Below, piece after piece: positions 24,166 through 29,348 of a DNA stretch of 64,000 nt. The notes beneath the pieces were generated by a model. The model did not search any database. It was not told where the DNA came from and was given only the letters and a program-made list of their open reading frames with translations. This DNA is from Dehalococcoidia bacterium (GTDB taxonomy: Bacteria; Chloroflexota; Dehalococcoidia; Bin125): positions 248,001 through 312,000 of the forward strand of contig JAJDWB010000007.1 of the NCBI GenBank assembly GCA_022825855.1. Reading direction: 5' to 3'. Both the position numbers and the translations under genes were made by a program. How positions within the stretch are numbered: position 1 is the stretch's first letter; every line of letters begins with the position of its first letter.

Positions 24166-25056
24166 CTACCGATTGCGAGGGGCCTGGGAGTAGTCGCCGA
24201 AGGGGCCGTCCCGCCAGGCGAGGGCTCCCTTGAGGCCTTCGTCCCGCATCCGGCGCGACCACTCGTAGTGCTGGCTGGTGAAGGTGCCGACGGCGTCGAG
24301 GTCGGTGCTGCTGCGCAACGACGAGTAGATGCCCATGTTCTCGTAGAAGCGGTTCATGTGGACCTTGAGCTGGGCCAGGTGGTCGGCGGGCAGGTTGGAG
24401 ATGCGCTCGGCCAGGGCCAGCGTCTTCTCTTCCAGCTCGTCACGCGGAACCGCGTAGTTGATCAGGTCCAGTTCGGCCGCCTGGGTCGCGCGGATCGGGT
24501 CGCCGGTGTAGAACAGCTCCTTGGCCTTGCGCATGTTGGTCAGCAGGGGCAGGATGGCCGAGGTGCGCGAGCCGGCGAAGCGCAGACCGGGGTGACCGAT
24601 CTGCGTGTCATCGGCGGCGACGACGAGGTCGGCCATCATCGAGAGCTCGAAGCCGCCCGCGATCGCGTAGCCGTGCAGCTGCGCAATGGTCACCTTCTGC
24701 ATGTTCCAGAAGTACATCCAGATGTCGGTCACGCGGGCCATGCCGCCGCGGATACCCATGATCAGTCGGTTGCCGTCGTCGTCGACGGTGCGGAAACGGC
24801 GATGAATCGCGTCGGCGCCGTAGCCGCCGGCCGGGGTCAGGTCGTAGCCGGCCGAGAACGTGCGTCCCGCGCCCTTGACGATCAGCACGCGCACGTCGTC
24901 GTCGGCCTCGAAGTACTCGCAGGCGTCGCGGAAGTCATAGATCAGCTCCTGCGAGAGCGCGTTCATTTTCTCGGGCCGGTTGAGTGTCAGCACGCCGATC
25001 CGGTCGTCGGTGCCGGTACGTTCGAGCAGGACGTTTTCGAAGGTGGGGAGGGACAT
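24166..25056 (-). CDS. Enoyl-CoA hydratase/isomerase family protein
   Basis: This crotonase-fold enzyme acts on acyl-CoA thioesters, hydrating or isomerising the double bond. Diagnostic parts are LTLNRPEKMNALSQEL, the first oxyanion-hole segment GAGRTFSAGYDL and the second AQLHGYAIAGGFELSMMADL. The usual catalytic Glu positions are not both obvious, so the exact reaction is open. Length is 296 residues, slightly above the norm. GGAGATC precedes the ATG. It is divergent from an extracellular binding-protein gene. Confidence 0.88.
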   Translation of the reverse strand: MSLPTFENVLLERTGTDDRIGVLTLNRPEKMNALSQELIYDFRDACEYFEADDDVRVLIVKGAGRTFSAGYDLTPAGGYGADAIHRRFRTVDDDGNRLIMGIRGGMARVTDIWMYFWNMQKVTIAQLHGYAIAGGFELSMMADLVVAADDTQIGHPGLRFAGSRTSAILPLLTNMRKAKELFYTGDPIRATQAAELDLINYAVPRDELEEKTLALAERISNLPADHLAQLKVHMNRFYENMGIYSSLRSSTDLDAVGTFTSQHYEWSRRMRDEGLKGALAWRDGPFGDYSQAPRNR

Positions 25057-25151
25057 GGATCGATCTCCAGGAACTGGTCGTTGGTCCGCCTCAGCCTAGC
25101 CGACGACCGTTGATAGGCTTCTCTGGAGTCGAACACGAAGTGAGGTCGGAC

Positions 25152-26966
25152 ATGAGACGATTGCTGGCGGCGGCGGTCGCGGTCGCCTTGATGCTGGCGG
25201 CCTGCAGCGACAACATCCCCACGACCCCGGAGACCACGCCGAACACAACGCCGGATGCGCCGCCGGACACCGTGTCGACCCTATTGGCCAACGCGTCGGC
25301 CTTCGAGTATGTGGTCGGCGAGCGGGGCGGGGAGCTCACGTTCGCGACCATTTCCGAGCCGCTGACCTTCAACCTGGCGCTGTCCAACGACGCCGGATCT
25401 TCGGGCGTGCTGGGCTACCTGTTCGAGGGTTTGACCGACATCTCCTGGCTGAGCGGCGAGCCCCAGCCGAATCTGGCCGAGTCGTGGGACGTGTCGGCCG
25501 ACGGCCTGACCTGGACCTTCTACCTGCGCCGCGATGTCCGCTGGCACGACGGCGAGCCGTTTACCGCCGACGATGTCGAGTTCACGTTCAACGAAATCAT
25601 CTACAACGAGGAGATCCCGACATCGACGCGTGCAGCGTTCACTTTCCGACTGCTGGACGAGAACGGCGAGTGGCAAGAAGCGCCGATGGCGGTCGAGGCG
25701 ATTGACGAGTACACAGTGCGCTGCGTGCTGCCGGTCTCGTTCGCGCCGTTCCTGCGTTCGATGGCGACCGCGATCTACCCGCAGCACATCCTGCAGCCCT
25801 TCGTCTACGAGGGGACGTTTGCTGACATTTGGGGGATCGACACCGACCCGTCCGAGATCATTGGCACGGGGCCGTTCCTGATCGATCAGTTCACTCCCGA
25901 GGAGCGGATCGTCTACCGCCGCAACCCCGACTACTGGATGACCGACGCCGACGGCAACCGGCTTCCCTATCTCGACCGCGTCGTGCAGGTGATCGTGCCC
26001 GACCTGGAGAGCGAACTCGAGGCGTTCCGCAGCGGCCTGGCCGACACGCACGGCGTGCTGGGCGCGGAGTACGAGGAGCTGATGCTGCTGCAGGAGGACG
26101 AGAACTTCACCATTCACCGCCGCGGCCCGTCGTTCGGCTCGGTCTTTCTCGCCTTCAACCAGAATCGCGGCGTCGACCCAGAGAGCGGCGAGGCCTATCT
26201 GTCGGACGAGCGCCTGCACTGGTTCACGAACCTGCAGTTCCGGCGGGCGATTGCCCACATCGTCGACAAGGACGCGATCATCGACCAGGTCCAGCACGGG
26301 CTCGGCTACCCGCAGTGGTCGCCGATCAGCCCGTCCTCGGGCGACTTTCACAACCCAGATGTCGCCGCGTACGACTTCGAGATCGGTCGCGCAGCGGCGA
26401 TGCTGGACGATCTGGGCTGGACCGACCGGGACGGCAACGGATTCCGCGAGGACGACCTCGGCAACGAGATCGCGTTCAGCCTGGCGACCAACGAGGGCAA
26501 CACGGTCCGGGAACAGGTCGCCGGCATCATCCACGAGCGCATGATCGAGCTGGGCGTGAACGTTGAGCTGCGGATCGTCGACTTCGGAGACCTGGTCGGT
26601 CAGTTGACTACCACGTACGACTGGGACGCCATCGTGATCGGGCTCACGGGCGGCCCGGATCCGTACTCGGGCATGGTCGTCTGGCACAGCAGCGAGAGCC
26701 TGCACCTGTGGCATCCGAACCAGCCGGAACCGGCGACGGCCTGGGAGGCAGAGGTCGACGACCTCTACATCCGCGGCAGCCAGGAACTGGATCGAGAACG
26801 GCGGATTGCGCTCTATCACCAGGCGCAGGAGATCATCGCCGACAACTTGCCGCTGATCTATACGACGCTGCCCGAACGGCTCTCGGCCGTGCGCAACGTC
26901 TTTGGCAACACGACGCCCACGCTCTACGGTCTGTGGGATGTGCGCTACGTCTATCGAGTGGACTAG
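25152..26966 (+). CDS. Family 5 extracellular solute-binding lipoprotein
   Basis: This is a peptide/nickel/oligosaccharide-type ABC binding protein (SBP_bac_5) of 604 residues. The start at 25152 gives a lipoprotein signal with lipobox LMLAAC (Cys18), then a Thr/Pro-rich linker. Family features include NLAESWDVSADGLTWTFYLRRDVRWHDGEPFTADDVEFTF, GTGPFLIDQF and the C-terminal ADNLPLIYTT. No permease or ATPase gene is next to it, so it is an orphan whose transporter lies elsewhere. Ligand unknown. Confidence 0.9.
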   Translation: MRRLLAAAVAVALMLAACSDNIPTTPETTPNTTPDAPPDTVSTLLANASAFEYVVGERGGELTFATISEPLTFNLALSNDAGSSGVLGYLFEGLTDISWLSGEPQPNLAESWDVSADGLTWTFYLRRDVRWHDGEPFTADDVEFTFNEIIYNEEIPTSTRAAFTFRLLDENGEWQEAPMAVEAIDEYTVRCVLPVSFAPFLRSMATAIYPQHILQPFVYEGTFADIWGIDTDPSEIIGTGPFLIDQFTPEERIVYRRNPDYWMTDADGNRLPYLDRVVQVIVPDLESELEAFRSGLADTHGVLGAEYEELMLLQEDENFTIHRRGPSFGSVFLAFNQNRGVDPESGEAYLSDERLHWFTNLQFRRAIAHIVDKDAIIDQVQHGLGYPQWSPISPSSGDFHNPDVAAYDFEIGRAAAMLDDLGWTDRDGNGFREDDLGNEIAFSLATNEGNTVREQVAGIIHERMIELGVNVELRIVDFGDLVGQLTTTYDWDAIVIGLTGGPDPYSGMVVWHSSESLHLWHPNQPEPATAWEAEVDDLYIRGSQELDRERRIALYHQAQEIIADNLPLIYTTLPERLSAVRNVFGNTTPTLYGLWDVRYVYRVD

Positions 26967-27092: not shown

Positions 27093-28160
27093 ATGGTGAC
27101 TGCCGACAGACTTGACGAACTGCAGATGGAACCGGAGGCGCCAGAACTGGATCTCTCCTGGCTCAACCTCGACACCGAGTGGGGTGTCGTCTCGGAGCCG
27201 GGCCGCAAGGGTCTGACGCTGCAACAGATCAACAAGTCGATCTACGGCGAGATTCCTGCCACGTCGGAGGACAGTTCGGCGCGGCCGCGCGGCGCCGCAG
27301 CGCCCGAGGGCGCGACTCCACGGATGACGCCCTGGGTGCTGGGCGACGCGACCGAGACGTTTTCCGACTCGGCGGCGCTGCTCTACGACGAGGCTGTGTC
27401 GCGCCAGTGGTCGTCGGCCACCGACATTCCCTGGGACACGCTGGACGAGCTGCCCGAGGACATCGAGCGGGCGATGGTGCAGCTCTGCACGTCGCTGACC
27501 GAGGTCGAGTTCATCGCCGGCGACGTGCCCGGCAAGTGGCTGCCGCGGATCGCCGCCGATCACTATGAGTCGGGACTCTTCCTGATGTCGCAGGTGATGG
27601 ACGAAGCGCGCCACACGGATGTGTTCCGCAAGCGCGCGCTGGCCAACGGCGGCGGCCTGCTGCTGCAGGGCGGCGGCGGGGGACTGCGCCAGATTCTCGA
27701 GGCCGAGGACTTCACGCAGATGTCCTCGATGCTGCACATCCTGGGTGAGGGCTTCGTCCAGTCGCTCTTCCGCCTGGGCGAGTTGATTGCCCACAACGAG
27801 GCCGAGAAGCGCATCTTCCGGCTGGCCGCGCAGGACGAGTCGCGGCACGTGGCGTACGGCGTGACGCACCTCAAGTACACGCTGGAGCACGAGCCCGAGA
27901 AGGCCGAGGAAGTCCACTGGACGCTGGACATGTTCGAGGACACGTTGGTCGACCCCGACCAGGCCAACCCGGGTCTCGCGGGCGCGCTGGTCTACCTGCT
28001 CGGCGACGGCGACGTCGACGAGGGCTGGCGGCTGTTCTGGCACGTGCGGCGCAAGCAGGTGCTCGAGTACCTGCACCGGCTCGACGTGGCCGGCCTCGGC
28101 GGCCGGCTGGAGACCGGCCGCCTGCATCCGGCGCTCGCCGGGGCGCTCGACGAGAACTAA
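27093..28160 (+). CDS. Ferritin-like diiron oxygenase, catalytic-type subunit
   Basis: The 355-residue helical protein has the full ligand pattern of R2-like/diiron carboxylate proteins: Glu137 (LTEVEF), the first ExxH in DEARH (Glu171, His174), Glu219 (LGEGF) and the second ExxH in DESRH (Glu249, His252). Such centres activate oxygen for hydroxylation, desaturation, N-oxidation or radical formation. The substrate cannot be told. A glycine-rich loop lies near residues 186-197. It is followed by a paralog that has lost several ligands, which suggests a two-subunit enzyme. GAGGAG precedes the ATG by about 9 bases. Confidence 0.82.
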   Translation: MVTADRLDELQMEPEAPELDLSWLNLDTEWGVVSEPGRKGLTLQQINKSIYGEIPATSEDSSARPRGAAAPEGATPRMTPWVLGDATETFSDSAALLYDEAVSRQWSSATDIPWDTLDELPEDIERAMVQLCTSLTEVEFIAGDVPGKWLPRIAADHYESGLFLMSQVMDEARHTDVFRKRALANGGGLLLQGGGGGLRQILEAEDFTQMSSMLHILGEGFVQSLFRLGELIAHNEAEKRIFRLAAQDESRHVAYGVTHLKYTLEHEPEKAEEVHWTLDMFEDTLVDPDQANPGLAGALVYLLGDGDVDEGWRLFWHVRRKQVLEYLHRLDVAGLGGRLETGRLHPALAGALDEN

Positions 28161-28189
28161 GCAGGAACCTGCTTCATCACGACGGATGT

Positions 28190-28216
28190 CAGGGGCGACC
28201 CTTGCGGTCGCCCCTG
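28190..28216. repeat. Palindrome between the two diiron genes
   Basis: CAGGGGCGACC and GGTCGCCCCTG pair perfectly over 11 bp with a 5-base loop. A 12-base palindrome, GCAGGAACCTGC, lies just upstream at 28161-28172. These sit between co-directional genes and may tune relative expression or stabilise the upstream message. Confidence 0.6.
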
Positions 28217-28253
28217 CGCGTATCGACGAACCGTGGAGATTGGGAGGCAACAG

Positions 28254-29348
28254 ATGCCCGACAACGATGTGATCGCCGCCGCGAAGGAGCGTCTGGAGCA
28301 GTCGGGCTTGCCCTCGACCTGGCTGGATATTCCCGTGCACTGGGGCGTCAAGGCCAAGGAGCAGGCGACGGCGGAGAACGGCGGGCTGCGCTTCCAGATG
28401 CTCAACGTCGACGTCTACGGCGAGGTGCCCGAGTTCTGGGACAACAACACCGAGATCCCGCGCGGGGCGGTGCCCGACACGCGCACCGAGCAGATGGGCT
28501 ACTCGATCTTCAACAAGGCGGAAGTCTGGTCCGACCTCTGCGCCGAGCTGTACGAGGACGCGATCGCCGATCGCTGGAACTCGTCCTCGGACGTTCCCTG
28601 GGACTCGCTGGAGCCGATCGGCGCGGACCTGGAGCGCGCGGTCTGCCAGATTGCGACGATGATGTCGGAGTACGGCTGGACCAAGGCGCAGACCACCGGC
28701 CGCTGGCTGCAGGAGATCTCCTACGGCTACATCGAGGTCAAGCTGTTTCTGGGCACCGTGGTGTTCGACGCGGCGCGGCTGTTCGAGGTCTGGCGCAAGC
28801 GGGCGCTGGCCAACGGCGGCGGGCTGGGGCGCGGCGGGCGCAACTGGAAGTTCCTGCCGCTGACCCAGAGCTACACGTTCAGCGAGTTCTGCGTGGCGTC
28901 GATCATGCACGACTCGATGCTGCTTGCCCTGTTGCGGCGGGGCGAGCAGTTGGCCCAGACCGAGGCCGAGCGCAGCATCTACCGGCTCTGCGAGCGGGAC
29001 ATCGAGCGGCACCTGACCTACTTCGTCGATCACATGCGCTACCTGATGCTGAAGGAACCGGTGCGGCGCGAAGAGATTCACCGCTACATGAACAAGGCCG
29101 AGTGGTACCTGGCCAAGGACGGCGACGACACGCTCTACAGCGCGGTCGCGGTGATCATGGGCGACGGCCGCGAGGGGGCGCAAGAGGCGATGGCCGACGT
29201 GGCCGAGCTGCGCCAGGAGCAGATCGAGACCTACCTGGGTTATCTGCGGCAGTGCCACCTGGCCGATCGGGAGGATCGGCTGAACCTGGAGCTGCGCAAG
29301 TGGGCGGGCATGGTCGAGCCGGAGGCAGAAGAGAAGATCCCGGTCTGA
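28254..29348 (+). CDS. Diiron-protein paralog with degenerate metal ligands
   Basis: The protein aligns along its length with the preceding gene product (both have ERAxxQ, then FRKRALANGGG or WRKRALANGGG, and RGEQLAQTEAERSIY). Metal ligands are altered: the first ExxH (DEARH) is DAARL, the Glu before the second motif is Asp, and DESRH is DIERH. It should not hold a normal diiron site. It is best read as a structural or regulatory subunit of a heteromeric enzyme, as in bacterial multicomponent monooxygenases, but that is inference. The ATG at 28254 follows GGGAGG. Its length is 364 residues. Confidence 0.78.
   Translation: MPDNDVIAAAKERLEQSGLPSTWLDIPVHWGVKAKEQATAENGGLRFQMLNVDVYGEVPEFWDNNTEIPRGAVPDTRTEQMGYSIFNKAEVWSDLCAELYEDAIADRWNSSSDVPWDSLEPIGADLERAVCQIATMMSEYGWTKAQTTGRWLQEISYGYIEVKLFLGTVVFDAARLFEVWRKRALANGGGLGRGGRNWKFLPLTQSYTFSEFCVASIMHDSMLLALLRRGEQLAQTEAERSIYRLCERDIERHLTYFVDHMRYLMLKEPVRREEIHRYMNKAEWYLAKDGDDTLYSAVAVIMGDGREGAQEAMADVAELRQEQIETYLGYLRQCHLADREDRLNLELRKWAGMVEPEAEEKIPV

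Follow-up and report, generated by a model that had tools for sequence, protein, structure and literature searches.

A putatively catalytic R2-like protein and its ligand-deficient paralog as a candidate heteromeric oxygenase of Dehalococcoidia

Two adjacent genes of a Dehalococcoidia bacterium encode paralogous proteins, here termed A and B, of which only the first has kept a full set of putative metal ligands. The question raised by this locus is whether the two proteins work together as a catalytic subunit and a pseudoenzyme, or whether they act apart. We addressed it by computation, starting from the window, i.e., the whole stretch of 64,000 nucleotides that was analysed. The close relatives of the window are metagenome-assembled genomes labelled Chloroflexi or Dehalococcoidia, and we infer that they belong to SAR202 proper. 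One genome, bin125, could be traced by its accession to a metagenome of the sponge Aplysina aerophoba (PMC5649159). The features on which the argument is built are listed in Table 1.

Table 1. Positions of the features discussed (coordinates of the window, except for the C gene)
Feature	Position	Strand	Basis
Subunit A, 355 amino acids, R2-like/ferritin-fold	27093..28160	+	Open reading frame and translation
N-terminal arm of A (residues 20-80), motif GLTL..IN...YG..P...PRGA common to A and B	27150..27332	+	Predicted models
Codon of Glu139, most likely first metal ligand	27507..27509	+	Invariant in A and A-like outgroups
First ExxH of A (E171-A-R-H174)	27603..27614	+	Invariant in A; aligns to DExxH of VlmB and R2lox
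Codon of Glu219, either a bridging or a terminal ligand	27747..27749	+	Invariant in 24 A proteins
Second ExxH of A (E249-S-R-H252)	27837..27848	+	Invariant in A; aligns to DExxH of VlmB and R2lox
A-B intergenic gap, 93 nt	28161..28253	+	Without terminator-like site on scan
Subunit B, 364 amino acids, paralog of A, metal ligands lost	28254..29348	+	Alignment to A
C gene of the window's genome, on contig 5, adjoining no A-B pair	L190:8769-9338 = G000:C5:158768-159190	-	Search with the C profile

Paralogy of A and B and the fate of the metal site

Open reading frames and translations agree with the positions originally proposed for both genes. The best start of B is the ATG at 28254, which has GGGAGG immediately 5' of it, and scanning for promoters and terminators revealed no signal above chance. 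In most other tandems the gap between the two genes measures 7 to 461 nt, with 1159 nt in L111. The two proteins align end to end as predicted, starting at residue 22 and extending almost to the C terminus, at an identity of 34% over 325 residues (E 2e-53) that is far beyond chance. One of the sequence blocks that had been assigned to both, RGExxAxxEAE, is present in B (RGEQLAQTEAE) but reads LGELIAHNEAE in A. Neither protein scored above the cut-off of any family in Pfam and NCBIfam, and PDB searches with the single A and B sequences returned nothing relevant.

A comparison of the window with seven relatives by the Nei-Gojobori method gave dN/dS ratios of 0.03-0.09 for A and of 0.09-0.28 for B, and the rate of amino-acid change in B is two to three times that in A. 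Judged by its ratios, B is under purifying selection and thus no pseudogene. A B gene with two TGA codons in its reading was seen in the third pair of another genome (G017:C5:1252-2043), and represents either a decaying copy or an assembly error.

The ligand set E139, E171, H174, E219, E249 and H252 is unvarying in 24 of 24 diverse A proteins, and in a wider alignment the six residues are kept in nearly all A rows, the distant outgroup L098 having Lys at position 219. While the last five agree with the original prediction, the first ligand had been placed at Glu137 (27501-27503). This residue varies among active relatives (E, Q, V, R and others, with Gln in many A proteins), whereas position 139 is Glu without exception, both among the A proteins and among the distant A-like outgroups; based on this conservation we assign the first ligand to Glu139. 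In an alignment with the A profile, both DExRH motifs of A coincide with those of VlmB and R2lox.

By contrast, B reads G141, A173, L176, D220, I250 and H253 at the six aligned positions, and only H253 is kept. The degeneracy proposed for B, including Asp at the third ligand position, was thus substantiated, but the loss is deeper than claimed in that the Glu of its DIERH motif is one residue out of register. Other B proteins have lost their ligands in different ways, for example A-H-H-A-K-H in L056 and G-A-K-K-S-H in L051. The ligand positions vary throughout the B proteins, none of which has the full set, as would be expected of proteins that no longer need to bind metal. With regard to the hallmarks of the R2-like superfamily (a four-helix core and E...ExxH...E...ExxH), A displays both the ligands and the fold, and B the fold only.

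Common inheritance of A and B and a third component

Maximum-likelihood analysis of 76 rows separated 33 A proteins from 31 B proteins at one well-supported split (98/97 and 100/99), which indicates that A and B arose by a single ancient duplication. Members of the family are present in 115 of 393 Dehalococcoidia genomes, with up to several copies per genome, and in the window's own genome there are three tandems of A and B, located on contigs 16, 13 and 22. Independent occurrence of the two genes had been named as an outcome that would speak against their pairing. It was not observed: outside the genus of the window at least 62 tandem pairs are found among the matches listed, unlinked A and B normally reside in the same genome, and their trees match. 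Apparent singletons of A or B, counted among the same matches, represent an upper bound. Unlinked pairs are nonetheless real, as A and B are located on different contigs in G340 and G398.

The distance matrices of 31 A-B pairs correlate with r 0.873 in a mirror-tree comparison. When the B partners were shuffled within genomes, r averaged 0.38 and reached 0.869 at most, i.e., none of 5000 shufflings attained the observed value. Moreover, in G035, G340 and G398 the unlinked A protein agrees with the B that is likewise unlinked (r ~0.8) and not with the tandem B (r ~0). For the split pair assumed in G043, by contrast, another combination fitted better.

Clustering of neighbouring open reading frames brought to light one gene, C, that recurs on the same strand directly 3' of B. 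C is a candidate third component, which is new here and absent from the earlier reading of this DNA. Its product has about 145 residues with an invariant FPS..W and other motifs, and 41 of the 60 C genes checked immediately follow a listed B in the same orientation. Among the 393 Dehalococcoidia genomes, A/B and C occur together in 109 and are both absent from 275, while A/B is present without C in 6 and C without A/B in 3 (112 with C in total). Fisher's test for this co-occurrence yields ~1e-85, a value inflated by kinship since related genomes are counted as independent; by genus, A/B and C are both present in 54 of 226. Both are missing from G016, a member of the same family as the window, and from G020. 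The window's genome has one C for its three A-B pairs, and a ThyX-type thymidylate synthase gene (L190:7501-8460) lies near it.

A few loci depart from the A-B-C order. At L117:8596-10183 (G404:C2), an A-like gene with full ligands is directly followed by C with no B between them, which makes it possible that A and C are the older association and that this locus reflects an older two-part state. L124 likewise has an A-like gene without adjoining B, with C located elsewhere. Given these few genomes in which B is not found alongside A-like and C genes, B may be dispensable in some relatives. At L068:9191-12060 (G048:C17), genes for A, a degenerate B-like protein and C are arranged in a row. In the tree, the B-like gene sits on a long branch and joins distant A-like sequences (100/97); it may represent either a second independent degenerate duplication or a long-branch artefact.

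The fold of C is less clear. Three C proteins had no significant match in Pfam, PF02036 included, and PF02036 has no match in the window's genome though C is present. SCP2 proteins appeared among the non-significant matches of a PDB profile search (E 1.7 and 2.2). Comparison of C with Chloroflexota SCP2 profiles by hhalign gave a P of 5e-4 and a probability of 31%, in a sensible register similar to that of the PDB profile matches, as opposed to a probability of at most 0.3% for unrelated and shuffled control profiles. An SCP2-like fold of C is possible, yet the link is weak and provides a lead only. UbiJ and UbiT are small lipid-binding SCP2 proteins that serve ubiquinone hydroxylation, which involves hydrophobic substrates (PMC6747719). 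If the weak similarity of C to SCP2 profiles reflects a true relationship, they may be a model for C.

Other neighbours are less informative. The MBL-fold, SDR, CoA-transferase III and luciferase-like monooxygenase genes noted at the outset were confirmed by Pfam but are not conserved beside other copies; MBL-fold, SDR and CoA-transferase were dismissed as pathway partners on these grounds. The copy in the window also lies near an enoyl-CoA hydratase gene. Near some A-B copies there are genes for thiolase and ChsH2-type OB-fold proteins. As a hint to the substrate such CoA-type neighbours are weak, because genes of this kind are probably common in these genomes. No reductase was seen among the conserved neighbours of A-B, be it of the PaaE type or, as in bacterial multicomponent monooxygenases (BMM), a reductase or Rieske gene. 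Directly upstream of A, on the same strand and separated by 126 bp, lies a gene for a family 5 solute-binding protein (25050-26966), a homolog of which is present at the loci of at least two close relatives.

Sequences more distantly related to A are scattered. A search of phages with A gave no match, and on plasmids there was one distant ferritin-like match, from a Xenorhabdus plasmid (27.5% identity over 55% of A). Distant R2-like proteins with 25-35% identity to A are encoded on IMG/VR viral contigs (L162 to L175). The first 50 residues of another distant A-like protein (L123:7920-9086; G137:C29) are weakly TusA-like (E 2.9e-4, below the cut-off).

Predicted structures and known diiron enzymes

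The model of A alone has a pLDDT of 80, with values above 90 in the core and a poorly ordered stretch of 80 N-terminal residues. Its best structural match is VlmB (PDB 8wvr; Z 24.0, rmsd 2.6 over 253 residues), followed by VlmB 6d9f (Z 23.8), R2lox (Z 22.5), cyanobacterial aldehyde-deformylating oxygenase (ADO; Z 22.2) and the methane monooxygenase hydroxylase MMOH (Z 20.9). A and B were modelled jointly as one read-through chain of 751 residues, in which the translated stop and the gap serve as a linker between the two in-frame proteins, on an alignment of 24 rows confined to in-frame A-B. Structures predicted not to interact had been named as evidence against a complex. The single chain of the cognate pair was instead modelled confidently (pTM 0.88, mean pLDDT 84.7) with a disordered linker, and for each half a match to an R2-like or ADO fold was obtained (B half versus ADO, Z 19.9). 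A pTM of 0.88 for a model of this length would be hard to reach unless the halves were confidently placed relative to each other. The pLDDT of the N-terminal arm of A, which is ~42-57 in A alone, is mostly 72-89 in the A-B model (residues 21-70), with a dip to 59 at residues 71-80.

VlmB, an azoxy synthase of the valanimycin type that acts on hydrazine substrates, is also the best PDB profile match of A (E 2e-8) and has the DExRH motifs in common with it. However, it is only ~20% identical to A. In natural product clusters VlmB works together with VlmO (PMC11705231), and no degenerate R2-like partner is described there. R2lox resembles A in fold (Z 22) and ligand order, but an identity with R2lox was rejected based on NCBIfam scores of 26.9 bits versus a cut-off of 194 and 23.1 versus 315. 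We know of no degenerate partner of R2lox. R2lox is characterized by a Val-Tyr ether cross-link whose valine is located three residues after the first ligand. In A, if E139 is taken as the first ligand, the corresponding distance leads to the nearly invariant Ala142, at a place where the alignment of the profiles is offset by one residue. AurF (PF11583) was likewise discarded, as the window's A scored 7.6 bits versus a cut-off of 29.6. A separate R2-like protein of the same genome (L053:4410-5255; G000:C10) passes that cut-off with 45.4 bits and is a different dimetal oxygenase.

Three known systems resemble the arrangement proposed for A/B. Yeast Rnr2 and Rnr4 form an R2-fold heterodimer of an active protein and a ligand-lacking paralog; A/B differs from this pair in that, to judge from its context, it does not serve as a subunit of a reductase. 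BMM hydroxylases such as MMOH and the toluene and phenol hydroxylases belong to the same fold family as A and follow the principle of an active alpha and a metal-free beta chain; in BMM, an alpha/beta/gamma hydroxylase is combined with an effector protein and a reductase. Yet A has ~350 amino acids as compared with ~490-515 for the matched alpha chains, and neither A nor B matched the Pfam families of BMM hydroxylases. In the phenylacetyl-CoA epoxidase PaaABCE, the catalytic diiron subunit PaaA and its structural partner PaaC of the same fold form a heterodimer, with PaaB as a small extra subunit (PMC4498308). The identity of PaaA and PaaC is 17% (PMC4498308), and A and B are thus closer to each other. 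No match to PF05138 (PaaA_PaaC) was obtained among A or B members or in the window's genome, whereas control genomes were positive. The comparison with alpha/beta monooxygenases made in the original prediction thus holds by analogy; no sequence test applied makes the family a member of the BMM or Paa groups. All three systems may serve as analogs of the way A and B would work together, and as analogs only.

A model for the A-B-C system and its alternatives

Taking into account the paralogy of A and B, the ligand loss in B, the joint inheritance of the three genes A, B and C, the R2-like fold and the predicted A-B contact, all of which were obtained by computation, we propose that A, B and C probably make up a heteromeric oxygenase of the R2-like type, with a diiron (or Mn/Fe) site, in which A is the catalytic subunit, B a structural pseudoenzyme and C an accessory component that is perhaps lipid-binding. 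The catalytic-plus-pseudoenzyme arrangement suggested at the outset is supported by ligand pattern, co-inheritance and predicted contact alike. It is rather unlikely that A and B instead form separate homo-oligomers that merely share a regulon or pathway, A being a homodimeric R2-like oxidase and B having taken on a new role as carrier, sensor or chaperone without contact with A. R2, R2lox and many ferritin-fold proteins do form homodimers; in some families linkage of B with C is commoner than with A, and B can be located far from A. Against such a separation argue the confident joint model, in which alone the arm of A is ordered, and the match of the paralogous A and B lineages within genomes. 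An improbable variant is that B is catalytic through a different site, either a mononuclear metal or a non-metal one, and that A and B are two sequential enzymes of one pathway. B has indeed invariant residues of its own (Y157, E161, K163, R181-K182-R183, D249 and R252). However, several of these, namely the RKR block and the Asp-x-x-Arg pair, are common to A and B and therefore probably structural, and the ligand positions of B vary without rule.

That the pair is a divergent small subunit of class I ribonucleotide reductase (RNR) for deoxyribonucleotide synthesis, with A catalytic and B comparable to yeast Rnr4, is very improbable despite the common fold and weak profile matches to Ribonuc_red_sm and R2lox. 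An identity of A with class I R2 was rejected: matches to Ribonuc_red_sm are weak only, and the window's genome has none. The genome does encode a class II NrdJ-type reductase above the cut-off, which needs no R2, so that a service of A/B to RNR is ruled out in practice. Also, three pairs in this genome and none in most of the class would be odd for such a function. E. coli R2 has its radical Tyr four residues after the first His ligand, a feature not general to all R2 classes, and the residue four after H174 in A is the invariant Phe178. Finally, the faster evolution of B at amino-acid sites could be taken to mean that B is a relic of the duplication, decaying and kept by chance; with dN/dS well below 1, B in most A-bearing genomes and a single duplication that is very old, the chance of this is close to nil.

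For the proposed heteromeric oxygenase, we infer metal identity, O2 chemistry, role of C, substrate and stoichiometry as follows. A and B would assemble to a heteromer that is at least an A:B heterodimer. A carboxylate-bridged dimetal site in A (Fe/Fe or Mn/Fe) would activate O2. B would have kept the R2 fold without the metal site and would act as a structural and regulatory partner that packs on A and orders its N-terminal arm. C most likely would deliver a hydrophobic substrate to A or hold it there, or else may be an effector or bridging protein. Most likely, the enzyme would oxygenate an organic compound that is hydrophobic or linked to CoA. Since no reductase is conserved next door, electrons are proposed to come from a general ferredoxin or flavin reductase.

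A search of mainly open-access literature retrieved no description of the A/B family, and the Chloroflexota papers searched contain no terms for a diiron system in their main text. Dehalococcoidia of the SAR202 type have been proposed to oxidise resistant dissolved organic matter by means of expanded flavin monooxygenases, dioxygenases and enolases (PMC6946804). It is tempting to speculate, with rather less confidence than in the heteromer itself, that A, B and C might be the central parts of a class of multicomponent diiron oxygenases that has not been described, evolved separately from BMM and Paa, has a degenerate paralog as scaffold and a possibly lipid-carrying C that brings in hydrophobic substrate, and radiated in marine and sponge-associated Dehalococcoidia oxidising such resistant organic matter. 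With its occurrence in 115 of the 393 Dehalococcoidia genomes, a diiron system of three parts would represent a further set of powerful oxidants. A/B would also provide a clear example of an R2-like protein turning into a catalytic-plus-pseudoenzyme pair, with relatives at hand for comparison on both sides of the duplication.
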